In this document: one piece after another, positions 1,739 through 16,331 of the stretch
Numbering within the stretch: the first letter of the stretch is position 1
Layout: every line of letters begins with the position of its first letter
Virus record (IMG/VR): IMGVR_UViG_3300030107_003157
Location: 1 to 29,090 of that record
Origin: a virus
DNA: 29,090 nucleotides
Strand: one strand, 5' to 3'
Position numbers and translations under genes: made by a program
Notes under the pieces: generated by a model
What the model saw: the letters and a program-made list of their open reading frames with translations, nothing else
Database searches by the model: none
Told to the model about the DNA's origin: nothing

Positions 1739-3913
1739 TTATTTATTTAATCTAAAATATTTTGACCAATCTTTATTTTTAATTTTAAATTCATTAAAAG
1801 TTTCTTTATCAGTATTCTTACTATACCAATTTAAAAATTGTTTTGGCCCTTCTTTTAAAGCGCTTAACATCGGTCTATATTCAGCTGATTGTAAATTACT
1901 ACTTAAATTATAAGTCATAGTCTGCATAATTTCATTTTGCTTTTGTTTATCACCTCCTGCTATTTTCTCAGACTCTGTTAAAAGCCAACTCATTATCATT
2001 GATGTACTTTGATTTGCTTTATCTGGAGAAACTCCTCCTACTACTAAGCTTGTCCCTACACTTGATTTATATGTATTTGCAACTTCTTGTAATACTTCAT
2101 TGTCTCCATCTGTATATACATCAGCTAACTTTTGATTTAATCTCATTTTATTTTGGAGTTCTCTCTTTTCATTTGCTATTTTATTTTTATGGCTTAAAGA
2201 ATCATTAAATACTTTACTTAATGCTTCAGAATCTGTATTTCTTTCCATATTCGTTCTAAATGTATAATCATTTATTGGTAGTACATCATAATAAACATCA
2301 TCAGAAATCATGTCTGGCTCTCTTAATTCATTTACCATAACTACTTTTAACTCTCTATTTCCATATTGTTCTAACATATTTTTTACTTTGTATTCTGAGG
2401 TTCTATAGGTTATTAAAGCGCTTTCTTTTTTACCTTCAGCGCTTATCACTTCCATTTGTAATCCTAAATATGTTCCATGATATTCTAAGTCATCTGTTTC
2501 ATTTTCAGCATATGGATTCCAACCTAAAGCTCCAGCTACGCCTCCAACTACACCCCCAACAACTCCTCCCACAACGGTACCAGGTCCTGGCGCGATATAG
2601 GTTCCTACAGCTGCTCCTCCAGTTGCTATAGTACCTCCTCCATGAAGCCCTCTTTCCCACCAAGTTCCTGCTACATCATCATCTGTAATCATTGTTCCAA
2701 ATTCATCATATAATCCACGCATAGTTATATCATAAACTTTACCACTATTTGCATTATATTTATCTCCATATATAGATTTCATAACTGCAATTTGTAAAGA
2801 TGGGTCTGTTAATATTTGTCCAGAAGATATTAATTGAGTCCCCTCCCATACATTCGTTCCTCCTGTTTTATCATATGGTGTTTTAGTTGCGTTATATCCT
2901 CCTAACTTTTCCCAAACATCTGAATAAGCAACTCCTGTTTCTGGGTCTACACCTTCTACTATATCTTTAAATGATATTCCTTTCTTTTCAAATTCTAATA
3001 ATCTATTAAGTGTCATTGGTTGAGGAGCTTCTCCTTCTGGAGTAGCCATACCTATAAGTAATGGAGCTAAATCTGTTAAATTTTTATCCATTAATGTTAC
3101 ATAAGAGACTTCTTCTTCTTTTGTACCTTGATATATCTGGTCTTCACCTATTCCTGTAGCTTGTTGAAACCAATTTTTTACAGCAGGCATACTAGATGGA
3201 TGAGCTAATTGCTCTTGACTTATACCAGTATCATTACTCATATCTGCTATTATTGACATAAAATTAGCCCCTATGATGTCATCCATATCTATTTGCTCTC
3301 TTAATCCAGATTCATCTATTAATCCTTGAATATCGTAATCCATTCTTAATCCAGCAAATTGAAAATCATCAATTTTTCCATCTTTAAAATCTTGGAATCT
3401 ACGTCTGTCTCCAGGCATAATTCTAGCTTTATCTTCATCGCTACCAGCAGCTAATACAAACTTTTCTAAATTAGCTTTATTTTGTTGAGCTCTTAAAAGT
3501 ATAGGATTTCCTTGTAAAGGGTCCGCATTTGGATTATTTATCTTTTGTTTATATTGTTCTATATAATAATCTAAATTACCATATAATCTCGCCTGTGAGT
3601 AATCTCCATTAAATCTTTGTATTATTTCTTTTATATCATTCCACCCTGAATGTTCAGCGTGCCATGTTTTCATATCATCGATATCCTTTTGTCTACCGAA
3701 TGTATTTTTTAATATTTGGTCTGTATAAGCTGATGCTGTACTTAATTGTTGCTGAATAAGATTTTTTTGATTCAAATTTTCAGCTTCTTGCTTTTCCATC
3801 ATTTGCAAGTATTGTAGCTGTTTCATCATATCAGCATCACGAGCGGCTCTTCTGTCCTGTGCAGATTTATAACCTGTGCTTAAAGCTGACCAATAACCGT
3901 AATCTAAAGCCAT
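1739..3913 (-). CDS. Probable internal virion (ejection) protein with glycine-zipper segment, 724 aa
   Basis: I do not recognise a catalytic family. Residues 1-80 are a charged, Gln-rich helical region likely to form coiled coil. Residues about 90-420 are mixed and acidic. Residues about 422-465 are a long Gly/Val/Ala segment with repeated GGVVGG-type spacing, a glycine-zipper pattern typical of sequences that insert into membranes or pack helices closely. The C-terminal 250 residues are polar and helical, ending in Lys/Asn-rich sequence. The start ATG lies 3 bases downstream of the stop of the 1638-aa gene, and the next gene starts 2 bases after its stop, so the three are probably translated from one message. 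Position after the tail genes, size and the single membrane-active segment suggest a protein packaged in the head and ejected to help DNA cross the cell envelope. This role is inference from context. Confidence 0.75.
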   Translation of the reverse strand: MALDYGYWSALSTGYKSAQDRRAARDADMMKQLQYLQMMEKQEAENLNQKNLIQQQLSTASAYTDQILKNTFGRQKDIDDMKTWHAEHSGWNDIKEIIQRFNGDYSQARLYGNLDYYIEQYKQKINNPNADPLQGNPILLRAQQNKANLEKFVLAAGSDEDKARIMPGDRRRFQDFKDGKIDDFQFAGLRMDYDIQGLIDESGLREQIDMDDIIGANFMSIIADMSNDTGISQEQLAHPSSMPAVKNWFQQATGIGEDQIYQGTKEEEVSYVTLMDKNLTDLAPLLIGMATPEGEAPQPMTLNRLLEFEKKGISFKDIVEGVDPETGVAYSDVWEKLGGYNATKTPYDKTGGTNVWEGTQLISSGQILTDPSLQIAVMKSIYGDKYNANSGKVYDITMRGLYDEFGTMITDDDVAGTWWERGLHGGGTIATGGAAVGTYIAPGPGTVVGGVVGGVVGGVAGALGWNPYAENETDDLEYHGTYLGLQMEVISAEGKKESALITYRTSEYKVKNMLEQYGNRELKVVMVNELREPDMISDDVYYDVLPINDYTFRTNMERNTDSEALSKVFNDSLSHKNKIANEKRELQNKMRLNQKLADVYTDGDNEVLQEVANTYKSSVGTSLVVGGVSPDKANQSTSMIMSWLLTESEKIAGGDKQKQNEIMQTMTYNLSSNLQSAEYRPMLSALKEGPKQFLNWYSKNTDKETFNEFKIKNKDWSKYFRLNK

Positions 3914-3916
3914 ATT

Positions 3917-6900
3917 TTACTCTTCTGTGTTATTATTATTGTCATTATTATCATTACCATTATCAAATGTGGAAGTTATTCCTAAATTTTCTTTTTGGTC
4001 TTGTCCCGCAAGGAATCCGCCTAAATATTGTTGTTGTATTTGCTGTAATAACGCATTACTACTTCCCCCCATATTCATTAATGTGTCTCCTAGTGTTAAT
4101 CCTGCAAACTCAGAGGCAGCTTTTTTATTAGCTAACTGCATTTGTAAATTCTCTTGTCTTAATTGCTCTTTTTGTGTTGCGTCAAAATTTTCCTTAAATA
4201 GCAACATTTCTTGATATTTATCTTGATTTTGTCTTTGCAACTCTGCGTCTTGTGAAGCAAACTCTAATAAAGCTGATGACCTTTTTGCATCTAATATACC
4301 TGATGAAGCTAAAAATTTAGCTCTATCTCCAGCTGTACCTCTAATACTATTTTCTAATCCCATTTGATATGCTGTATCTATCTCTCTTCTTATTTTTTGT
4401 TCTTCACTTGGATGAAATCCTCTTTTTTGTAATTCTTTTACTTGTCTAAAATGTTCATGAAACACAGGGCTCAGTCTAGCTCTTTCTTCTGGAGTCACAT
4501 CTTTCATTGCTGCCGCTAAAGCTTTTTTACCCATAACTGCTCCTATTAAAGCATCAGGCCCTCCAAAAGCATCTAATATACCTTTAGCAGCATTCATAGT
4601 TCCTTGTAGAACTTCTTGACCACTTAATCCTTGACTTCTTAATTCTGTATCATCTTCTGTTGTTATTTCTTCATCTACCTGTAAATCTAAATCTGCATAT
4701 GTAGTTGCATTTTCATTTACAAAGGTAGATATCTCTATATCTTGACCTTCGTTTAATTTTGTAAATAAATTAACTAATGCTCCTCTAGTTGTTGTGTGCA
4801 TTCCAGCTCCTAATAATCCTGGAGCTGTTTTTGTTGTTTCCACCCCATTAACCATTTCTGTATACTCTCCTCCAAATAACAACGTCTCTATAGCAGTACC
4901 TCTATATTCTTCTTTTAAAGTGCCTCTTCTTGATAAATTTAATACAGCATTTTCTATATCTTCTTCTTGAATTTTAAATATGTTTTTCAAAGGTATACCT
5001 AAATCTTTAAATTCACTTATATCATCTGCTGTTACCTGTACGTTAAATATCTTTTTTGCATCTCCATATTTTAAAGATTTTGTTTTTGTATCATGAATAT
5101 CGTATCCTATCTTTTTCTGAACAAAATTTCCATTTTCATCTAAAGTATAATAATGTTCAGGCCCGTTTTTCTTTATTCTTTGCCATTGATTATATGTTAT
5201 ATAAAGAGTTTTACCATCTGGTGTAGTTAAAGTTACAGTACCAGGTTTTATAGTTCCATCAGCTCTATGAGTTGCGTTTGCGTCATCTTTCTCATATCTA
5301 TGCCAATAAGTATCTTCATCGTTCCACCAATCTATAAGATGTCGTATAGGTCCTTGTCCACTTTTTATATCACTACCATAATAATTTATATCAACTTCTT
5401 CTTCATGATACACCTGAAATCTTTTTTCTTGCAGATTTTTAGCATGCATGTTATCTACAACAGTTATCCAAGAAGGTTCTCCTGTAAAGTCATCCATGCG
5501 TCCTGGTTTATGACCTTGTAAATATAAAAATATATCTATACCTCCTTTCCATTTTTCACCCCATTTCGCTATCTCTCCTCTACTATTTGTAATTCTGTCC
5601 ATATATCCACGAACTTCTTCTTGGTCTTCACCTATAAAAAACTCTGTAAACAAATCTTGTACTGACATGTTTTCAAGCTCTTCACTAGTAAAATATGGAG
5701 TATCTAATTGACCTAATCCTTCTAGCTCTTCGTTACGTAAACGTAATCCATCTATATATTCTTTTTCTTTGTTTTTATCTCCCTTTATATCGTCTGGGAA
5801 TATACCTTTACCAGCTTCTTTTATTAGTCTATCATTTTCTTGTTTGTATTTTTTTATAGATATATTTATTTCTTTTCTAATTTTTTGATTATTTCCTTCT
5901 AAAATTGAACTATCTAAAGATTCATGATTTTCTAATTCTGCGTCTACGCCTTCTGGATGATATTCTTTTAATACAGTAAGGTATTGATTTAAACCATTTA
6001 ATGTTGCTATATTTTTATCTATTTGTTCTAGTTCAGCTTTTTGATTTTCAGTGGTTTCTCCTTCTAATTGTATTACATCATTAATTAAATTTTTTCTATT
6101 ATTTAATTCTTCTATTTTTTGAAGAGAATATGATGTATAAGATTCTACAGTTTTATCTTCTGGTAATACTATTTTATTTTCTTCTTCTTGTTCTAACCTT
6201 AAATCTTTTTCTAAATTTAATTGTTTTTCTTCAGCGTCTTGAGATTCTTTTAATTCTCTTTCTTCTCTTTCCCAATTTTCTTCTCTAATACCTGTTTCTA
6301 ATTCATTTTTATCTTTTTCTTGCTCTGCAATTACAAGGTCTTTTTCAGTTGTTTCAAAGTCTACTAAACTTTCTAATTCTGATAACTCATCTGCAGTTAA
6401 TACTCTTTCATTTTGTTGGGTTCGTAACTCCTCAAGTCTATTATATTTCCATCCAGATTCAACTTCTTTTTCTAAATCTGAATTTTTATACATTATACCT
6501 TTCCAAGGCCATTCTTCTATAGGGGTTCCTTCGTGCTCTATCTCCAATTCCTTTATTTTTGAATATAAAGGATGTGATTCGTCTGCTAAAATTTGGTCTA
6601 TTTGTTCTTTATGTTTACTATAATATCCTATATTTTCCTGTCTTTCCTCTTCTTCTTCTTCTGCTTCTATAGCTTCCCATTCTTCATTATCTATTGAAGC
6701 TTGAATCTGAAAATCTATATTCTCAGAATGTTGAGTCTTATTCTTTTCAACACGTGTATTCCAATCTTCATCTGACATACGTATAAAATCCCATCTATCT
6801 TTATCATAATTCCATTCAGCGTCATACTTTTTTCCATCAATCATTATCAAGTCTCCAGCCGACCAACTATATTCTCCTTTCTGATGAGATAGAGCTTCTT

Positions 6901-8833
6901 CTTTAGAGTTATATGAAAAATATCCATCAAGATATGTTTCTCCATACGCTCCTAATATTTCTTTTCTTAAACCTTCTCTTTTATCTTTATCAGTTATTTC
7001 TATCTTTTCTGTTACCTCCGCTTCTTCTGTTACTTCTGTCTCTGTATCTTCAATAATTTCTTCTTCTGTTGTTTCTGTTTCTGCTTTACGCAATTCTAAT
7101 TCTCTATCTCTGATTTCTTTATTATTTATTATTTCACTTCTCGTGCCCTCATCTGGCTGTTCATTTGCTATATTTAAAAGTAAATTAGCATCTTCTTCTG
7201 AATACCCTTCATTTATAAAAATATTTAATAAATTTTCGTCCGCTATATTTGTTTCTGTAGTTATTTCTTCTACTTCTTCTGTCTTTATTTCTGTCTCTGC
7301 ATCTTCCTCTACTTCTATATTTTCTGTTTCTTCTGCTGTCTCTGTTGTTTCTATTTCTTCAGTTACTTCAGTTTCTTCTGTTTCTAAATATTTTATTGGA
7401 GCTCCACTATCAGTATCATTTTTCTCTACTACAGCTCCTTCTCCTCTTTCTTCTGATACAGCGTCTTTTATACTTACCCTATCTCCATATACATTTTTTG
7501 CTTTTACAAAAGCATTTTCAAATTCATTTTTTATTGCATCATACGGTTCTCTAGTTTTTTCATAATTATCATATCCTGTAAATACCAATTCTTTTAATGG
7601 CTTACCTTCTGTTATAGTTCTAAATTCATATGTATATCCTTGATTTTCTAATTCTGTAAGTTTATCTCCATATTTCTCACGAAGACTTTCTTCAAATCCT
7701 ACCGCAACTTGTATTTCGTAACTAAACTCTTTTACAGGATTTTCATATAATACTCTATTTGTTTCTTCATCTACATTTATATTAGATTCTTCTCCTCTTT
7801 CTATTTTTACAGCGTCTTTTATACTAATACGTTCTCCACCTTTATCCGCTCTTACAAATGTATTATCAAATACTTTTGTTGCATCTATAAATGTTTTTTG
7901 AGTTTCTTCATAATTTTTCCAATCTCCTTCTATTGAAAATTGTATCATATTACCATCTTCACTTACTGGTTTTTTTGTAATTGTATATCCTTGATTTTGT
8001 AATATTTGTAGTTTATTTCTAAGACTTTCATCTATATCATCTCTTTTAGCTATTAAAAGCCTTACACTATATTGTATTTGCTCATCACCAACATCAACTG
8101 TTTTTACTTCTTCGTCTTCATTAGGAGTTGCCTCTGTATTATATAAAGATACTGGATTCCCATCAGATATATCCACCCATGTAGAATCATCATCTGGAGA
8201 TGACCTAACATTATTCTGAAAGTAGTCTGATTGATTAAATTCTGTTTTAACAAAATGATTAGGCTGATTACCCCATCCCCAAGCAGAAAATGTAGTCCCA
8301 TCCCCATTTTTCATTTTTAATTCTTTATCATAATAAGCTCCAGAACTATCATCATCTATTTCATATACATTACTAGCTTTTCCTTCATGACTCTCTCTAT
8401 TCCCTTCTTCTGTCATTACATCTATATGGTAATGAGCAGCATCACCGTCATCTCTATTTCTTTCGTCTATTATTCTAAGATTATGTTTTTTTATCCAATC
8501 GTCTGCTTCTGGTGTTAGATTTAATTCTTCCATTTTGTAGTCTAATGGATTCTCAACGCCAAATAAAAACATATATAATTCTTTATTTGCTTTACCATCA
8601 AGCCTAAAATCCATTGCGCTAGAATGGCTATGTGGACTTCCTTTTCTATAATGTTTATGTTTTCTTGTTGCGCTCGTTACTTCAAGATTCGCATTAATAG
8701 CTTCGTGTAGTTCTTGCAGAGCTAATGCGAGCTCTGGTCTTACTCTTTGGTCATGCACATCGTGAAAGATAAATCCAAAGTCTTCATTATAATCATCACC
8801 TGGACTTCCTCCTATCATTTTTGTTTTTGCCAT
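3917..8833 (-). CDS. Virion-associated peptidoglycan-processing protein: M15-like peptidase + two SPOR-like domains + acidic/coiled-coil region, 1638 aa
   Basis: Residues about 30-140 resemble a zinc-dependent M15 peptidoglycan peptidase: VTSATR, then GSPHSHSSAMDF (H68/H70, D75) and GDAAHYHIDVM (D131, H134, H136), the family's S.H....A.D and D..H.H pattern. Two tandem copies of a SPOR-like domain follow (about 254-342 and 371-459), each running from Y-[SE]-[VI]-x-[VL] through a G-[DY]-x-x-NYE-[EK]-T helix to FV-x-A...R-[IV]-SIKDAV. SPOR domains bind glycan strands stripped of stem peptides. Residues about 481-616 are Glu/Thr low complexity, 700-1080 are highly charged coiled coil, and about 1400-1600 are helical with RGTAGDRAKFLASSG near 1500. 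The tail end is Asn/Asp-rich. It overlaps the upstream gene by TAATG. I infer a packaged protein that finds and cuts peptidoglycan when DNA enters; it could instead sit at the tail tip. Domain calls are by eye. Confidence 0.8.
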   Translation of the reverse strand: MAKTKMIGGSPGDDYNEDFGFIFHDVHDQRVRPELALALQELHEAINANLEVTSATRKHKHYRKGSPHSHSSAMDFRLDGKANKELYMFLFGVENPLDYKMEELNLTPEADDWIKKHNLRIIDERNRDDGDAAHYHIDVMTEEGNRESHEGKASNVYEIDDDSSGAYYDKELKMKNGDGTTFSAWGWGNQPNHFVKTEFNQSDYFQNNVRSSPDDDSTWVDISDGNPVSLYNTEATPNEDEEVKTVDVGDEQIQYSVRLLIAKRDDIDESLRNKLQILQNQGYTITKKPVSEDGNMIQFSIEGDWKNYEETQKTFIDATKVFDNTFVRADKGGERISIKDAVKIERGEESNINVDEETNRVLYENPVKEFSYEIQVAVGFEESLREKYGDKLTELENQGYTYEFRTITEGKPLKELVFTGYDNYEKTREPYDAIKNEFENAFVKAKNVYGDRVSIKDAVSEERGEGAVVEKNDTDSGAPIKYLETEETEVTEEIETTETAEETENIEVEEDAETEIKTEEVEEITTETNIADENLLNIFINEGYSEEDANLLLNIANEQPDEGTRSEIINNKEIRDRELELRKAETETTEEEIIEDTETEVTEEAEVTEKIEITDKDKREGLRKEILGAYGETYLDGYFSYNSKEEALSHQKGEYSWSAGDLIMIDGKKYDAEWNYDKDRWDFIRMSDEDWNTRVEKNKTQHSENIDFQIQASIDNEEWEAIEAEEEEEERQENIGYYSKHKEQIDQILADESHPLYSKIKELEIEHEGTPIEEWPWKGIMYKNSDLEKEVESGWKYNRLEELRTQQNERVLTADELSELESLVDFETTEKDLVIAEQEKDKNELETGIREENWEREERELKESQDAEEKQLNLEKDLRLEQEEENKIVLPEDKTVESYTSYSLQKIEELNNRKNLINDVIQLEGETTENQKAELEQIDKNIATLNGLNQYLTVLKEYHPEGVDAELENHESLDSSILEGNNQKIRKEINISIKKYKQENDRLIKEAGKGIFPDDIKGDKNKEKEYIDGLRLRNEELEGLGQLDTPYFTSEELENMSVQDLFTEFFIGEDQEEVRGYMDRITNSRGEIAKWGEKWKGGIDIFLYLQGHKPGRMDDFTGEPSWITVVDNMHAKNLQEKRFQVYHEEEVDINYYGSDIKSGQGPIRHLIDWWNDEDTYWHRYEKDDANATHRADGTIKPGTVTLTTPDGKTLYITYNQWQRIKKNGPEHYYTLDENGNFVQKKIGYDIHDTKTKSLKYGDAKKIFNVQVTADDISEFKDLGIPLKNIFKIQEEDIENAVLNLSRRGTLKEEYRGTAIETLLFGGEYTEMVNGVETTKTAPGLLGAGMHTTTRGALVNLFTKLNEGQDIEISTFVNENATTYADLDLQVDEEITTEDDTELRSQGLSGQEVLQGTMNAAKGILDAFGGPDALIGAVMGKKALAAAMKDVTPEERARLSPVFHEHFRQVKELQKRGFHPSEEQKIRREIDTAYQMGLENSIRGTAGDRAKFLASSGILDAKRSSALLEFASQDAELQRQNQDKYQEMLLFKENFDATQKEQLRQENLQMQLANKKAASEFAGLTLGDTLMNMGGSSNALLQQIQQQYLGGFLAGQDQKENLGITSTFDNGNDNNDNNNNTEE
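6986..7393 (-). repeat. Glu/Thr low-complexity region encoded by GAA/ACA-type codon repeats
   Basis: Residues about 481-616 of the 1638-aa protein are dominated by Glu, Thr and Val with irregular repeats such as TEEIETTETAEETE and IEDTETEVTEEAEVTE. One less repetitive island at about 529-585 contains NIFINEGYSEEDANLLLNIA. The DNA is a run of near-repeats (tctgt/ttcttc on the plus strand), a place where copy number could change by slippage or recombination. It probably forms an acidic flexible linker. Confidence 0.75.
7457..8074 (-). repeat. Tandem SPOR-like domain pair inside the 1638-aa gene
   Basis: Two protein repeats of about 89 residues are separated by about 28 residues (copy 1 at 8074-7808, copy 2 at 7723-7457). 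Shared features in order are Y-x-[VI]-x-[VL], an [ED]-S-L-R-x-K helix with a second L..L-x-N-Q-G-Y block, a strand ending in G, N-Y-E-x-T, [NT]-[AT]-FV-[RK]-A, then R-[IV]-SIKDAV and ERGE. The implied order beta-alpha-beta-beta-alpha-beta is that of SPOR. The copies are clearly diverged, so the duplication is old. Confidence 0.65.
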
Positions 8834-10098
8834 TATGAATACATGTTATTTGATTTCCACTTATTTATATTTTTTTGAGCAATTTCGGCAATTTTTTTAT
8901 CACTCATAGTAGATTTAAATTGGTCTGTAGCATGGTCATATATACCAGCTCCACTTTTAACTTTAAAACTTAATGGACCTCCTCCAGCATATATAGTTCC
9001 ATCTGATGTAACTGGCATTGGATTATTTGCGTGAGTTTCTGGTCCTGGAGTTATATATCCACCTCTCATAGCGTTTCTAATAGGAGCCGCAGCTTTTGCA
9101 TAGTTACCTTCTTTTAATCCTTGTTCTACAACATTTTGATTATTTACTACTAATTCATTTCCTGTAAATTCTGCCATAACATCTTGTCTAACTGTACCTC
9201 CCATATTATAAGAGTACTTCATTCCTTTAGCTGCTGTTTCAGGTAAAAATCCTCCATACATAGTATCTCCTATATCTGAGCCTTTACCATGTCTTGCTGA
9301 CCATTCCGCATCTCTTTGTCTTCTTTCTTCTGCCATTTTTTCTGCATATAAAGAAGTTTCAGGAGCTTGTATAGTATCTTGATATTCTTGTGTTTTTTTC
9401 TTAGCTCTTCTTTTTCTAAATAAAAATCCTAATGCTGTTGCCGCTATAGGTAACCAAGGAGCTACCGCTGCTAATTTAGGCATTAAAGTCATAGCTGTTC
9501 TAGCTGCAAAAAAGTCTCCTATACCTGTTCCAATAGCCTCTCCTGTTCCATATGTATATGGATTTTTATCACTAGCTAAACTATATGCTATTGCTGCAAT
9601 TGGAGCTGTTGTAGCAGCTGGCATATTAGAGCCAAATCCCATAACTTTATCAGCCATTGATGCAGGAGCTGAAGCAGAAGGAAGAGAATATGGTATAGCT
9701 GTAGATGAAGCAGCTGTTGAAGCTGAAAGTGTTTGAGGCCCTATTACTGGAGCTGCGGTTGTAGCAGCTGTTTTAGCGGCCATTTTAGAAAATATACTTT
9801 TATCTAAAGTTGATAAAGGTTTTTTTAATGTTTTTAACAAATCTTTAGATGTATATAAACTTTTGACACCAGTCAGAAGCTTCTCTTCTGTTGTTGGAGT
9901 TACATAAGCATCAGGAGGTATTATACCAGAAGCTTCTTCACTTTGTGATATTTCAGATTGAGCTTGAGCGTATATATCTCCAGCTGATGTACCTATATAA
10001 GCGTCAGATGTATATGGATTAACAGAAGAATATCCTTGTGGATTTTCTAATCTTTGTCTGTCTTGAAATTGTCTAAGTATATTTAAGTAATTTGGCAT
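8833..10098 (-). CDS. Internal virion protein with a hydrophobic segment and conserved-looking Gly-rich C-terminal domain, 421 aa
   Basis: The N-terminal 100 residues are polar. Residues 105-180 are Ala/Ser/Thr/Pro-rich with a hydrophobic stretch near 160-176. Residues 205-227 are a clear membrane-type segment (MPKLAAVAPWLPIAATALGF), followed at once by a basic cluster RKRRAKKK (228-235). After a charged helix, residues 300-421 form a distinct domain containing EFTGNELVVNNQ, GGYITPGPETH and AGIYDHATDQF, and ending in a Lys/Asn-rich helix. I do not recognise a named family, though EFTGNE-like motifs occur in large tail or internal proteins of phages of Bacteroidota. It overlaps the muzzle-like gene upstream and the peptidase gene downstream by TAATG at both ends, so all three are probably translationally coupled. 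I infer a membrane-active ejection protein; a tail-tip role is an alternative. Confidence 0.75.
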   Translation of the reverse strand: MPNYLNILRQFQDRQRLENPQGYSSVNPYTSDAYIGTSAGDIYAQAQSEISQSEEASGIIPPDAYVTPTTEEKLLTGVKSLYTSKDLLKTLKKPLSTLDKSIFSKMAAKTAATTAAPVIGPQTLSASTAASSTAIPYSLPSASAPASMADKVMGFGSNMPAATTAPIAAIAYSLASDKNPYTYGTGEAIGTGIGDFFAARTAMTLMPKLAAVAPWLPIAATALGFLFRKRRAKKKTQEYQDTIQAPETSLYAEKMAEERRQRDAEWSARHGKGSDIGDTMYGGFLPETAAKGMKYSYNMGGTVRQDVMAEFTGNELVVNNQNVVEQGLKEGNYAKAAAPIRNAMRGGYITPGPETHANNPMPVTSDGTIYAGGGPLSFKVKSGAGIYDHATDQFKSTMSDKKIAEIAQKNINKWKSNNMYS

Positions 10099-13000
10099 TA
10101 TTGATAAGATTTACGATATTGAGCTAATATTGCAAAGATATTAAATTTATTTGGATTCTTTGCTCTGTATGTTAATTTTAAATATGTACCTCTTTGTCTT
10201 CCTATTGATTTAAATGGAGTCCTTAAAGGAAACCTTAATACTCCTTCTCTATATTTAGCGAATGACGTACCATTAAGCAGTCCTGTATCTTCGTCAGTAA
10301 TCTCTGTTTCAAAGTCTACAAATGTAATATTGGTTGATATTGCTGTATCATCTGTATCCATTATAATTTTAGCATTATCAAACACCTTAGGCATTGCTGG
10401 AACTTCATTTATAATTTTAGTTATATAACTCCAAGAAACATCACTACTGTAATTTATTGAAACAGTTTCATCAAAAAACACAGTTTTATAATTATTTATT
10501 TGCTCATCCCATTTCCATAATGATAAATAATTTTGAGGACCTTTTGCGCTTTCTAAAGACCCTCTCCCATTGTCCACTTGTACATTTTCTAATCCATTAT
10601 TATTAAAATAACCACTTGTATAATATCTAGTATTCTGTTCATCAAAATATGTTTGATGCTGAGTGGAAACTAAATAACCTCCTATTTGCATCCATCTAGC
10701 TGGACAAACACTATAATATGATGTAAACGCATTTATACTTTCGCTATATACTATAGTTTTTGATAATGTTGAAGGAGTGTCTGTATTTGTAGAGGTCTCA
10801 CCAAATGATTGAGTGGTTCTTACAAACTTTCTATGAAGACCAACTGATTGGTCTATCATTGAGGAATGCATTGTAATTATTAGTTCATTATTTTTATAAT
10901 CAAAAGCACTTGTTATTCCATTAAATCTCATTGAATTATCAGCTACAAAGTTTCTAGTTGTTAATTTTCTATTACCTTGAACCATAATACTTTTTTCTTT
11001 AGAATCTAAACTACCATAATTTTTGATAACAGATTGTAAAGAATCTCTTTGTCCTAGCTCATCAGATAAAATTTTCAATTCATTTCCAGTGAATTGTATT
11101 AATTTTGCATATGTATTATCTATGAAATATAAATTTCTTTCTGAAGCAACCACACTCTCCATATGTCTTGTACCATATATAGATGATATATATTGATGAT
11201 TTTCTATAACATCTCCTGTACCAACATAAATAGATGTTCCTAATTCATCTTGAATCATTGAAATTGGATTAACGAGTAGTTTAGCAAACGATTTCTCCTG
11301 TAAAACATATAAATCATTTTTCCATGTTTTTAATCTCGTTATTTCTCCGTATTGAGATTCCATGTCATGGAAATTTCTAAATTGAAAAACCTTAAAAGAA
11401 TCACTAGGCTCTCCAGCTATTTTAGTATTTGAATAAGCAATTTCATATGGCAAATTCAAAGCTCTACACGTTCTTGTTTCGTCTATCATTAAGCTAGACT
11501 TAACATTGTTATCTTGAGAATATACACTATTATATTCCCAATCATTCCAATTTCCTCCACCATCTTCGAGTTGTACATCTCCAATGTTAACATCTCCTGC
11601 TGAAAGATGATACCCCATTCTCATATCTGTATTTGTATCTGCTTCTACAGGGAATACCTGCCATCTAGCAAAAGACCTGGTTTCGTAAACGGCAGCTGTT
11701 TTTTGATGCGTATAGAAAGTAATAAACGTATCCCCTCCAAATACTCTTGATAAATGAGATTCTTTAGATGTTCCGTTAGATTCTATTTTTATAGGATGAA
11801 AATTACCTGCTGGTATATATCTAGTATTTTGTATAGCTGGTAAACTAGAACCTCCATATGGTATTGTATTTCTTGTTATAGAACATAAAAATTTAAATGG
11901 TATATAAGAAGGCCCTCCCCAATCTTGGGTACCAGTAGTAGAAATACTTTGATATGTTTTAGTACTAGAATTTATACCTTGATTTAAATAATATTTTGTA
12001 CTACCAGTTCCTGTTCCCCAATGCCTATGCTCTAATATTTCTGATAAATTTCTTGGATTTAATAATCCTCTCTTCTCTCCAAATTCACCTTCTCCATCTA
12101 TTTGAAGCAATATAGTTCTTAACCCCATTTGTATTGAAGAAACAGTATCATATGTTACATCTTCTTTCTTTGGAAAGGTTGTACTGCTATTTTCACCTCC
12201 TCTTGAAAAATGTTTAACTAAAGCTCCAAATAGCCAACTTGTACCTCCAGAATAGTAACTTCCTCCCGCAGCGGCGCCTAACCAACCAAAGTCAGATTGG
12301 TTTGTAAATTTTCTTCTTCTTTCTACAAATCCTAATGTGTTATTTGAAAATCCAGCCATTTCATTACCCGCTCCATCACCTTTATCAAACATTCTTACGC
12401 CCTCTTTAAAAAAAGATTTTCCAACTATATCTCCTGGAGCTATTTCTTTTGCTGTTAATATTGTATTATGATATATATCATGATGTTGACTTGGTCTATA
12501 TTTTAAATTATTACCATCTACCACTAGTTCATCTTCTGCTCCAGGAGCGTATATTTTACCTCCATCTACAGACATCCCTACTCCCCAATAAGTATCATAA
12601 ATATAATACTTAGCTATTAAAGCTCCATATCCGTCTCCATCAGTTCCTTTACGTAAAAATTTACAATATTTTAAAGATTCTGTTCTGTTTAAGTCTTTAT
12701 CCCATGATTCCCAATTATGACCACTTAATGGCCCTACCTCTGCTTGGTCCACTCCAAGAGCCGCACTTACAGCATTACTTCCAGAGTGATTTAACATCCC
12801 CCAAGGACTAGAAGCGTGTGACCCACTAGTTTGAAAAGCTTTAGTAGTTCTTTCCTCATCAACTAATTTCATTATTGCGTCTACCCTAATTTTATCACCA
12901 GTTCTAAAATGATAAGGTGACGTACCAAAAGCACTATCTGGACAATCTAATGTAAATATACTACCCTGAACAGCATGATAGGCCGCTCCTTGCATATCGT

Positions 13001-16000
13001 GATTATAAGGAGAGGTAAGCGATATCCTTTTAGATTTTTGATATTGGTCTAATACATTTGGAAGTAAATCATAACTACCAAAATAAGCAGAGTGTTTACG
13101 TTGTACAGCGTCATTTGCAGGGGTTCTGTCTGAAGTATAATCCAAAGGCTGGTTAAAATATTGGAATTGACCTGAAGAACCTGTTGAAGCTTCTTCTCTT
13201 TCTTTAAAAGACCAGATATATGGCCATCTTCTTGCAGCAGAAGGTAAAAAATTATAAGGACTGCCACTAGGAGAGCTAGCTCCGCCATAGTTTTCGTCCC
13301 AAAAGGCTATATTTGAATTTTCTGCTAAACCTATATATCCATTTAAAAAATCATCATACTTAATGTGTACAGTAGCAGTATATTGTTTAGTACTACCAGA
13401 ATAGTTATTTTCATTTGCAAATGTACCTGGTCCAAAATTGAACTCATCGTTTCTCCATCCAGTTGAAGCTTTCCCAAATTCTTTATCTTGATTATAACCC
13501 TTATAAACATCTTTATGACCATAAGCAACTGTTTGGTTTAATATACCTTGTTGTAAAATAGATTTATCTGATTCTAATCTTTCTGCTCTTACCACTCTAA
13601 ATCCTGATATTTTATCTCTAACATTTTGAGGTATTCTAAATTCAAAATTTAAAAATAAATCTAAAGCATAATGAACATCATCATGCTGCTGTTGAACCAT
13701 ATTTGTTTGTGGCCTTATTTTGGTTGAAATATTATTTGTATCATCTCCAATTGCAACTTGATTTGAAGGACTTATATATCTTGTAGAAGTCCCTGGCGTA
13801 TGATAACCTCTATGGTCACGATATGCTTTTACTAAGTCATATCCAGCTCCTGTTGTGCCAGTTGTAGTAGCTGATATCGTTGAGATAGTAGGTCCTGTAC
13901 CCGCATTGTTAAATCCACTAATATCTGCTTTATGAGTGAACTCTATATTATTAGGGTCAATATATCTATGAGTGTCTTTAGCTGTATATGGTCCTATACT
14001 TTGATTAAACCAAGCAACATCTGTAGATGGAGTTGTACTTCCAAATATAAGTGAAGTTCTATGGTCTTGTACAGATGGCCTATCCCCACCACCTGTAGTT
14101 GCGAATAAATTTTCCTTTTGACTACCAGAGCTTTCTCCATTTAATGTTTCTAAGTCGTTAAGGTCACTAGGATTATAAGTTGGCATTCCAGGCCAATATC
14201 TTGCATCTTCTGTTCTTATTCTTCTTAAAGGGTCATGCATTTCTGGCATTTCAATATCTCCAATCCATAATACATTTCCTGGTCTACCGTTTTTATCATA
14301 AATTTGCACACCAAATCTATACATCTCACCTCTTCTATATCCTTTAAATCCATTTATACATGGGTCTTTACTTCCTCCTAAATTAGTGGTAGCGGTATAA
14401 ACAGTACTTGAATTATTCATGATTATACCAGGGGAGGTTCCATCATCTGATATATTATCTGTTCCATTTCCAGACCCCTGAGAAATGTCATCAAGTCCTC
14501 CAGCGCTTATAAAAGGAACGCTGTCAACATTATTTTGAACATCTACCTGTCTATGTCTTAAATCAAATGTGACTCTACATCCTCCTAAATCGTTTTCTGC
14601 ATAATCATAACTTTCTCCCCCTAATGTTAGCCCATCAGATAAATATCTATATTCATGAGATTGTTTTTTTACAATATCTACTCTTCCCTCATCTTCATAT
14701 TTTGTACCTGAAATTTCTGTTGTATCGTCTCCTTTATATGTTCTCCATTTTGGCATACCGCTTTCCCATGTCAATCCAGGAGAACTTAAAGCATTTAAAT
14801 CCCCACTAGAATCTATTTCGTATTCTTTTATTTGCGTATCATCAGATGTTATTCTTCCTGTATTGCTACTACCTCCACTACCCTCATCTGCAATATTGTA
14901 TCTTCTAACCTTTACATTCCACTCTTCTTCAGAAATAACATTGTCTCTAGTTTTTAAATTTCCAGCAAATAATATATTATCTTTTATTGCTAAATCTTTA
15001 CATACATCCCAAGTGTTTATATCTATTAATATCATGTCTACACCATTCTCTAAATCACCTGTCCAATGTGTATGATTAAAAACAACTGAACCTGCATTTC
15101 CATTATAATGTCTAGTACCCGCTAACGACACTCTAACAGGACCATCATTAGATTCATGATGTATAGCGTATAATTCTATTATATCAAAATCTGGGTCTAA
15201 ATCAGTTATTGTTACTTCAAATCCTTGAGAACTTACATCAATTAATGGGTCTCCAGAAGGACTTCCATAAAAAGATTGTGTAGTTGATACATCATGTTTA
15301 CTTGTATGATACAAGCTGCTCCAAGGACTCATAACTGTTTCTCCTCCATTTGAAGAAAGATATTTATAACAATATTGCATTTGTCCAACTGGTAAACTTC
15401 CTAAAATAGTTCCTGTAGCTACAGGTTGAGAAGGACTATGCATTGGCGTTAAATCTAAAACATCAGGAGATAATATATTTTTTCCTGGCTGCTTTATATT
15501 TATAGACCTTAAAGGATTTATATTGTCTGTCCAAAATATCCTAGAAATACACTCATTTTCTACTATACCCTCCACTCTAACAGGTAAATCCATTTTCATA
15601 TTTAAATCTGGATAACCTGATGACGCTCTATTAAAATCGTAACAAACATGTAAATCAGTTATACTAACTACATTTAAATCTTTATCAAAAACTACATCTA
15701 AGAAAATAGTTCTTGTTTTATTTGTGTCTCCTGTAGTAGCGTCTTGAGAGTTATCATCATAAGGAATTACAACAATAAAAATTACATTTGTATTATAAGA
15801 ATAATATCCAACTATACTAGCTGTATTAAAATCTTCTTCCCATGCGGGAGCAGGAGTTAATCCTCCATCAACAAGCTCTACGTTATTTCCAAAAAAAGGA
15901 ATAATACCTCCTGTTAAAGTGGCAGTTGTGGTTCCTGACCATATATTAGTTGCGCTTGGATAGTAATTTCCTACTTGCTCGTTATTTCCATCATAAGAAG

Positions 16001-16331
16001 TAGGGTCTATATATATTTCAGAAAATTTTTCATCTGTTGCTATTGTCTCTCCTGCTTTGCCTGTTACTCTTGTATTTAATATTCCTGTATTTGTACCAGG
16101 AGCACCGTCTTCTGATTGTTTACAAATTTCATTTAAATTAAAAAATTGTTTATTACCTAATATATTTTCAACAGTAAAAGAGCTTCCTCCATCATTAATC
16201 AATCTAATGTTTAATGCTTTTCTATAACTGCCTTTAACCTGATACCTTGGGTCTGGGTCTGATACCATTCCTCCTGTAAACCCTTGAGTCATAGATACAG
16301 CTTTATTTGATGGTGCTTGTTTTTTAGCCAT
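10098..16331 (-). CDS. Giant tail muzzle / stabilisation-like protein, 2077 aa
   Basis: The N-terminus (residues about 17-64: QGFTGGMVSDPDPRYQVKGS, then YRKALNIRLINDGG and NILGNKQF) matches the opening I know from tail-stabilisation or muzzle proteins of crAss-like and other short-tailed phages, where a 'GG.n.D' segment leads into 'ALN.R...G....N..GN'. Most of the rest is beta-rich, full of Gly/Ser/Thr/Asn/Tyr. Residues about 1640-1760 look like beta-propeller blades (YGEITRLKTWKNDLYVLQE, then NLYFIDNTYAKLIQFTGNEL). The C-terminus ends in IGRQRGTYLKLTYRAKN. No signal peptide or membrane segment is visible. It starts one base after the ring-protein stop and overlaps the next gene by TAATG. It should form the distal end of the short tail below the rings. 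It is the largest gene here, and middle parts may hold extra domains, possibly receptor-facing. Confidence 0.75.
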   Translation of the reverse strand: MAKKQAPSNKAVSMTQGFTGGMVSDPDPRYQVKGSYRKALNIRLINDGGSSFTVENILGNKQFFNLNEICKQSEDGAPGTNTGILNTRVTGKAGETIATDEKFSEIYIDPTSYDGNNEQVGNYYPSATNIWSGTTTATLTGGIIPFFGNNVELVDGGLTPAPAWEEDFNTASIVGYYSYNTNVIFIVVIPYDDNSQDATTGDTNKTRTIFLDVVFDKDLNVVSITDLHVCYDFNRASSGYPDLNMKMDLPVRVEGIVENECISRIFWTDNINPLRSINIKQPGKNILSPDVLDLTPMHSPSQPVATGTILGSLPVGQMQYCYKYLSSNGGETVMSPWSSLYHTSKHDVSTTQSFYGSPSGDPLIDVSSQGFEVTITDLDPDFDIIELYAIHHESNDGPVRVSLAGTRHYNGNAGSVVFNHTHWTGDLENGVDMILIDINTWDVCKDLAIKDNILFAGNLKTRDNVISEEEWNVKVRRYNIADEGSGGSSNTGRITSDDTQIKEYEIDSSGDLNALSSPGLTWESGMPKWRTYKGDDTTEISGTKYEDEGRVDIVKKQSHEYRYLSDGLTLGGESYDYAENDLGGCRVTFDLRHRQVDVQNNVDSVPFISAGGLDDISQGSGNGTDNISDDGTSPGIIMNNSSTVYTATTNLGGSKDPCINGFKGYRRGEMYRFGVQIYDKNGRPGNVLWIGDIEMPEMHDPLRRIRTEDARYWPGMPTYNPSDLNDLETLNGESSGSQKENLFATTGGGDRPSVQDHRTSLIFGSTTPSTDVAWFNQSIGPYTAKDTHRYIDPNNIEFTHKADISGFNNAGTGPTISTISATTTGTTGAGYDLVKAYRDHRGYHTPGTSTRYISPSNQVAIGDDTNNISTKIRPQTNMVQQQHDDVHYALDLFLNFEFRIPQNVRDKISGFRVVRAERLESDKSILQQGILNQTVAYGHKDVYKGYNQDKEFGKASTGWRNDEFNFGPGTFANENNYSGSTKQYTATVHIKYDDFLNGYIGLAENSNIAFWDENYGGASSPSGSPYNFLPSAARRWPYIWSFKEREEASTGSSGQFQYFNQPLDYTSDRTPANDAVQRKHSAYFGSYDLLPNVLDQYQKSKRISLTSPYNHDMQGAAYHAVQGSIFTLDCPDSAFGTSPYHFRTGDKIRVDAIMKLVDEERTTKAFQTSGSHASSPWGMLNHSGSNAVSAALGVDQAEVGPLSGHNWESWDKDLNRTESLKYCKFLRKGTDGDGYGALIAKYYIYDTYWGVGMSVDGGKIYAPGAEDELVVDGNNLKYRPSQHHDIYHNTILTAKEIAPGDIVGKSFFKEGVRMFDKGDGAGNEMAGFSNNTLGFVERRRKFTNQSDFGWLGAAAGGSYYSGGTSWLFGALVKHFSRGGENSSTTFPKKEDVTYDTVSSIQMGLRTILLQIDGEGEFGEKRGLLNPRNLSEILEHRHWGTGTGSTKYYLNQGINSSTKTYQSISTTGTQDWGGPSYIPFKFLCSITRNTIPYGGSSLPAIQNTRYIPAGNFHPIKIESNGTSKESHLSRVFGGDTFITFYTHQKTAAVYETRSFARWQVFPVEADTNTDMRMGYHLSAGDVNIGDVQLEDGGGNWNDWEYNSVYSQDNNVKSSLMIDETRTCRALNLPYEIAYSNTKIAGEPSDSFKVFQFRNFHDMESQYGEITRLKTWKNDLYVLQEKSFAKLLVNPISMIQDELGTSIYVGTGDVIENHQYISSIYGTRHMESVVASERNLYFIDNTYAKLIQFTGNELKILSDELGQRDSLQSVIKNYGSLDSKEKSIMVQGNRKLTTRNFVADNSMRFNGITSAFDYKNNELIITMHSSMIDQSVGLHRKFVRTTQSFGETSTNTDTPSTLSKTIVYSESINAFTSYYSVCPARWMQIGGYLVSTQHQTYFDEQNTRYYTSGYFNNNGLENVQVDNGRGSLESAKGPQNYLSLWKWDEQINNYKTVFFDETVSINYSSDVSWSYITKIINEVPAMPKVFDNAKIIMDTDDTAISTNITFVDFETEITDEDTGLLNGTSFAKYREGVLRFPLRTPFKSIGRQRGTYLKLTYRAKNPNKFNIFAILAQYRKSYQ

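Follow-up and report, generated by a model that had tools for sequence, protein, structure and literature searches.

crAss-like phages are abundant viruses of Bacteroidota. The window, by which we mean the whole 29,090-nucleotide stretch of viral DNA analyzed here, was placed among them because of the matches of its TerL (phrog_6681, E 5e-95), portal (phrog_6547, E 6e-118) and major capsid protein (phrog_11589, E 1.5e-29), and homologs of these crAss-type proteins and of the muzzle protein, as looked for in Crassvirales, are all present in crAss order. The window TerL is about 30% identical to those of cultured crAss-like phages, and on these comparisons the phage is crAss-like and deeply split from the cultured members. 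The interval 7457-8746 on the minus strand, in which a sequence-only reading had recognized a peptidase and two SPOR-like domains in one phage virion protein, corresponds to residues 30-459 of a single open frame of 1638 codons (Table 1). The start codon of this gene and the stop of the 421-aa gene upstream of it overlap at position 8833, and the gene order runs from the muzzle homolog, which also matches g071 of phage phi14:2 (E 1e-30), through the 421-aa gene and the 1638-aa gene to a 724-aa gene. Residues 422-617 of the 724-aa protein, a partly Gly/Ala-rich stretch, weakly match phrog_16692 (E 5e-5). No homolog of the 1638-aa protein over its whole length was found in IMG/VR by short-peptide search or among annotated phages by tblastn, and the relatives discussed below were found via TerL and via the C-terminal domain of the protein.

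Table 1. Genes and features at the locus, with window coordinates
Feature	Position	Strand	Basis
724-aa protein, next gene, order the same in relatives	1739..3913	-	ORF; comparison with relatives
1638-aa modular protein (M15 peptidase, two SPOR-like repeats, long acidic linker, conserved C-terminal domain)	3917..8833	-	ORF
Conserved C-terminal domain, residues 1386-1633 (~200 residues common), in all relatives regardless of N-terminal enzyme	3935..4678	-	Alignment, E 2e-113
Long acidic low-complexity linker, residues 470-1385, length variable among relatives	4679..7426	-	Composition; total lengths of relatives differ widely
SPOR-like repeat 2, residues 362-468; retains Gln, has Ala for Gly	7430..7750	-	Profile comparison; repeat alignment
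SPOR-like repeat 1, residues 246-352; Arg-x-Leu in place of the conserved Gln-x-Gly	7778..8098	-	Profile comparison; AlphaFold; repeat alignment
M15-type peptidase domain, residues 29-146	8396..8749	-	phrog_894; PF08291 sub-threshold; same zinc ligands in M15_3 endolysins
His136 codon, predicted zinc ligand	8426..8428	-	Invariant in six-row alignment
Asp75 codon, predicted zinc ligand	8609..8611	-	Invariant in six-row alignment
His68 codon, predicted zinc ligand	8630..8632	-	Invariant in six-row alignment
421-aa protein, upstream conserved neighbor	8833..10098	-	Homologs in 18/23 related contigs
2077-aa homolog of crAss 'stabilization'/muzzle protein	10098..16331	-	phrog_28748, E 4e-49; tblastn to crAss stabilization proteins

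The N-terminal domain of the 1638-aa protein is assigned to the M15-type peptidases from its profile matches and predicted metal ligands, in agreement with the M15-like motif set that the sequence-only reading had described there. PHROG 894 ('endolysin') matches the domain alone with E 1.5e-6 and in a six-frame search with E 9.6e-9, while the Pfam model Peptidase_M15_3 (PF08291) gives 16.7 bits, under its cut-off of 23.2; the two models match the same three control genomes. phrog_894 also matches stand-alone endolysin-like proteins of 151 and 164 residues in two related contigs (L275:250-705 and L276:207-701), which are above the Pfam M15_3 cut-off (E 9.5e-19 and 5.1e-12). No Amidase_2 endolysin was found in 14 related contigs searched. 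In an alignment of the window, its sister phages and these two proteins, S66, H68, A73, D75 and H136 do not vary among the six rows, giving the H-x(6)-D and H zinc ligands at M15 spacing. The window domain therefore shares with the Peptidase_M15_3 endolysins both the ligands and the motif S-x-H-x(6)-D ... H, and differs from them in being only about 21% identical, embedded in a multi-domain protein and below the Pfam cut-off. Sequence searches of solved structures gave no match for the M15 part or for the repeats that follow it, and an AlphaFold model of the M15 part made from four rows was set aside (pLDDT 50). Based on the family and the ligands, the domain would act as a peptidoglycan peptidase.

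The two repeats that follow are 34% identical over 98 residues (E 4e-17), with an alignment score 22 SD above 2000 shuffles, so that the tandem arrangement noticed in the sequence-only reading is real. Its further suggestion that they are SPOR domains resembling those of Bacteroidota was examined with a reference set of 150 SPOR-like domains from Bacteroidota genomes, for whose retrieval a Bacteroidota SPOR consensus was used only as bait; a first search of the genome contigs with the phage repeats as queries had given no match. Clearer SPOR copies lie at the equivalent place in the relatives L123 (two copies), L124, L125 and L143, and eight phage repeats aligned with the reference set by hhalign at 98.8%, or at 98.9% when those of the window were omitted. 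The two window repeats reached 95%, in the C-terminal half, and singly 92% (repeat 1) and 45% (repeat 2), compared with at most 4% for 60 column shuffles and 0.2% for a reversed control. The bacterial-domain profile found the repeats of L123 (1e-13), L125 (1e-10), L143 (1.5e-8) and L124 (5e-7) and, with the whole protein as target, those of the window (1.4e-3). In the opposite direction, a phage-only profile gave 19 matches in five of nine whole Bacteroidota genomes (best E 9e-9), and all ten of the loci fetched from these matches were SPOR proteins. AlphaFold, given phage rows only, modeled repeat 1 in the order b-a-b-b-a-b, followed by a short b-a extension, at pLDDT 80.6, a predicted fold with the SPOR order of strands and helices, and the phage and bacterial domains have in common a C-terminal extension with the signature F(V/I)xA...GxRI....A, the repeat ending to which attention had been drawn. 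These two-way profile matches, their controls and the AlphaFold order together indicate that the window repeats are homologous to Bacteroidota-type SPOR domains, with which they share length, strand order, extension and signature; the bacterial domains differ in belonging to chromosomal proteins and in nearly always having Gln-x-Gly. Presumably the SPOR-family repeats are of bacterial origin. A repeat of L134 that was included in the first alignments was later dropped, its own comparison reaching only 4%.

The relatives have the other end of the protein in common. The C-terminal domains of the aligned relatives are 43-66% identical to that of the window, and the domain has no PHROG and no match among annotated phages. 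The N-terminal enzyme, in contrast, differs from phage to phage: it is M15-like in the window and, by alignment to the window, in L122, L123 and L124; of the GH19 type in L125, L143 and L170 (sub-threshold in Pfam, with strong PHROG matches for L125 and L143); SLT in L126 and L133 and, by PHROGs, in L134; Phage_lysozyme2 in L131, L132, L148, L163 and L166; and GH108 in L151. Scans of L137 and L167 detected no enzyme, and L128, L129, L130 and L135, which had no scan of their own, show no apparent one; because several relatives thus have no detectable enzyme, it is not essential in the lineage. SPOR repeats accompany both M15 (the window, L123 and L124, so that M15 followed by SPOR does recur in related phages) and GH19 (L125 and L143). 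Since phages exchange the enzyme and the wall-binding parts but retain the C-terminal domain, the gene, as judged from these alignments, behaves as a cassette.

Other parts of these proteins vary as well. In L122 (L122:121-4194), a close relative of the M15 type, two other related segments, 'IRIE(Y/F)...YEGTV', replace the SPOR repeats, and in L123 and L125 (L123:1081-5373 and L125:133-5127) the enzyme is also separated from the linker by a CarboxypepD_reg (Ig-like) domain (E 3e-8 and 1e-9). In some relatives the homolog of the 421-aa neighbor has an SLT-type lytic domain (L134:280-1230 and L136:256-1206), that of L134 matching phrog_669 (E 2e-17) and phrog_342, internal virion protein with endolysin domain (1e-12), and muralytic domains therefore also move into the adjacent gene. 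T7 gp16 is a large ejected internal virion protein whose muralytic domain is a transglycosylase and which has no SPOR. Proteins of its type (phrog_342) thus resemble the window protein, as proposed below, in being large, ejected and muralytic, from a podovirus-like particle, and differ in enzyme and in lacking SPOR; they have a sequence relation to this family only via its SLT-bearing members.

The position of the gene bears on where the protein may act. In crAss phages the muzzle gene is followed by those of the cargo proteins C1 and C2 (PMC10172136), after which come the RNA polymerase subunits. The C1 cargo protein of phiCrAss001 is located in both capsid and tail, and its N-terminus is expected to exit first (PMC10172136). 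Mass spectrometry shows the genes that follow the muzzle gene of the marine phage phi14:2 to be structural. Muralytic domains are found in structural-module proteins of the present lineage, M15 here and GH19, SLT, lysozyme2 and GH108 in the relatives, and a Phage_lysozyme2 domain occurs in two of eight C1 cargo proteins scanned; the latter are the gut crAss C1 proteins of bajarodcaudo virus 1 and cr85_1, where the domain lies upstream of CARG1 (L254:1096-4059 and L260:965-3736), and the scan found none in gp45 of phiCrAss001. C1 (gp45, PF25725) and the window protein thus both follow the muzzle gene, but the eight C1 proteins scanned have no SPOR repeats reported by Pfam, and homology to CARG1 was not detected (hhalign 0.2% with either the C-terminal part or the 421-aa neighbor). 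Short motifs had also raised the suspicion that the C-terminal domain is related to crAss C1/C2, for which hhalign stayed below 1%, or to g067-g071 of phi14:2, which was likewise unsupported. Because the C-terminal domain has no detectable C1/C2 relation, the 1638-aa protein is filed as a cargo-position protein rather than as C1. A location in the virion is suggested by synteny, namely the muzzle neighbor and the structural genes of phi14:2 at that place. Since its position after the muzzle gene matches that of the crAss cargo proteins, a wall-opening ejection protein is the most likely of the roles considered, and we regard the 1638-aa protein as one that this crAss-like phage probably carries in its virion to open the wall.

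A role in lysis has to be weighed against this, in which the protein would be a late, periplasmic endolysin held at the wall by its SPOR repeats. This architecture has precedent, as SPOR is the binding domain of a few Bacillus phage endolysins (PMC11674121), one of which, an amidase with SPOR (L262), was recovered here. Moreover phrog_894 carries the name endolysin, and no other endolysin was recognized within the window, which is a genome fragment. However, the Bacillus/Geobacillus proteins, although they likewise join a hydrolase to SPOR, are short lysis enzymes of Gram-positive phages, of another enzyme class than M15, with no comparable C-terminal domain and encoded outside the structural gene block. 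With its 1638 residues, long acidic linker and conserved C-terminal domain, the window protein does not resemble endolysins, its gene lies between structural genes in the position of cargo proteins, a stand-alone M15 protein is encoded separately in two relatives, and several relatives retain the protein with no detectable enzyme at all. By reason of its size and position, the relatives without detectable enzyme and the separate M15 protein in two others, a lysis role is less likely than one in ejection, and we consider that the protein is unlikely to be the lysis endolysin.

A virion-carried wall-opening protein leaves the contribution of the repeats to be considered. That they are a different ferredoxin-like domain, resembling SPOR by convergence, might be argued from Foldseek, which with repeat 1 ranked generic ferredoxin-like folds first and returned nothing under E 1e-3, and from Pfam SPOR (PF05036), which has no match in the window even at E 10. 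The structural matches of the repeat 1 model to SPOR in VIA (RlpA, Z 6.7, 2.8 A over 73 residues; CwlC, Z 6.3) indeed tie with other ferredoxin-like folds, and the predicted fold is consistent with SPOR and no proof by itself. Pfam SPOR, however, under-detects the Bacteroidota branch, since one of five reference domains checked (L175, 15.7 bits) is itself below the cut-off of 21 that the other four exceed; a sister-phage repeat also scores 15.7 bits (E 0.019). With sequence profiles agreeing in both directions, clean controls and the extension signature in both groups, convergence is highly improbable. A more serious alternative is that the window repeats no longer bind glycan and serve another purpose, whether as spacers or refolding units of a long chain that is ejected or by binding a different partner. 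SPOR domains are used by bacteria to hold bare cell-wall sugar chains and are known from cell division. In RlpA and FtsN a conserved Gln (Q270 and Q251, respectively) and basic residues touch the glycan (PMC6895207), the Gln being the residue that SPOR domains conserve most. This Gln is present in 149 of the 150 reference domains and the following Gly in 140, whereas window repeat 1 has Arg and Leu instead and repeat 2 keeps the Gln and has Ala for the Gly, making the window repeats the most degenerate of the phage family; in L122, with the same enzyme type, different repeats stand at that place. Against a loss of binding, the repeats of L124, L125 and L143 and the first of L123 keep both Gln and Gly (the second of L123 has Lys at the Gln position), the aromatic and basic positions are kept in most of them, the module persists beside two unrelated hydrolases, which fits wall binding, and the contacts of RlpA are mostly main-chain (PMC6895207). 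Because Gln-x-Gly is partly lost in the window, it is fair to expect glycan binding in the sisters and less safe to expect it in the window, for which loss of binding is a real possibility short of being probable.

If the 1638-aa protein is indeed an ejected wall-opening protein, its conserved C-terminal domain would place it in the particle or the ejection apparatus, and its N-terminus, with the M15-kind zinc peptidase, would leave the tail first, as is thought for the phiCrAss001 cargo. The peptidase would then cut peptide cross-links at the entry site, and the SPOR-family repeats between enzyme and linker would in the sisters most likely keep the enzyme attached to glycan strands of the thin wall during cutting, a role that may also apply, in weakened form, to the window phage. 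The outcome would be a local opening of the wall during ejection. This account of wall opening and glycan docking is plausible, with the window copy as its weakest example. The sequence-only reading went further in proposing that a host-like module aims the enzyme at septal or remodeled peptidoglycan. Its observation and family assignments are upheld, and of its interpretation the M15-type peptidase, the two repeats of the Bacteroidota SPOR kind, a phage of a Bacteroidota-infecting order and a cargo-type gene position are supported. The steering itself, by which host-derived SPOR modules in crAss-like cargo would dock the enzyme on bare glycan and direct DNA entry to dividing or remodeled wall, with docking module and enzyme exchanged independently on one conserved ejection domain, is a tentative and rather doubtful extension. 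It is disfavored for the window protein by the change of Gln to Arg in repeat 1 and of Gly to Leu or Ala, and is better founded for the sister phages, where Gln and Gly are retained.

Hydrolases joined to SPOR are known in Bacillus endolysins, and we know of no virion protein with this pairing. The pairing therefore has precedent in phages, but its occurrence in a protein of the late structural module, in a crAss-like phage, looks undescribed. Literature searches found no treatment of SPOR domains in crAss-like phages or of virion-associated hydrolases in Crassvirales, which, coverage being incomplete, is weak evidence, and no wall-cutting protein is named in the structural paper on phiCrAss001 (PMC10172136). 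The more informative finding is not the window copy but that, throughout the family, modules for cutting and for binding the wall are exchanged on one conserved domain. In one crAss-like lineage a single C-terminal domain is combined with five or more kinds of muralytic enzyme and with a wall-binding module known from cell division, and two questions thereby become testable, namely whether the wall is opened by a cargo protein and whether entry is directed to particular sites on the wall.
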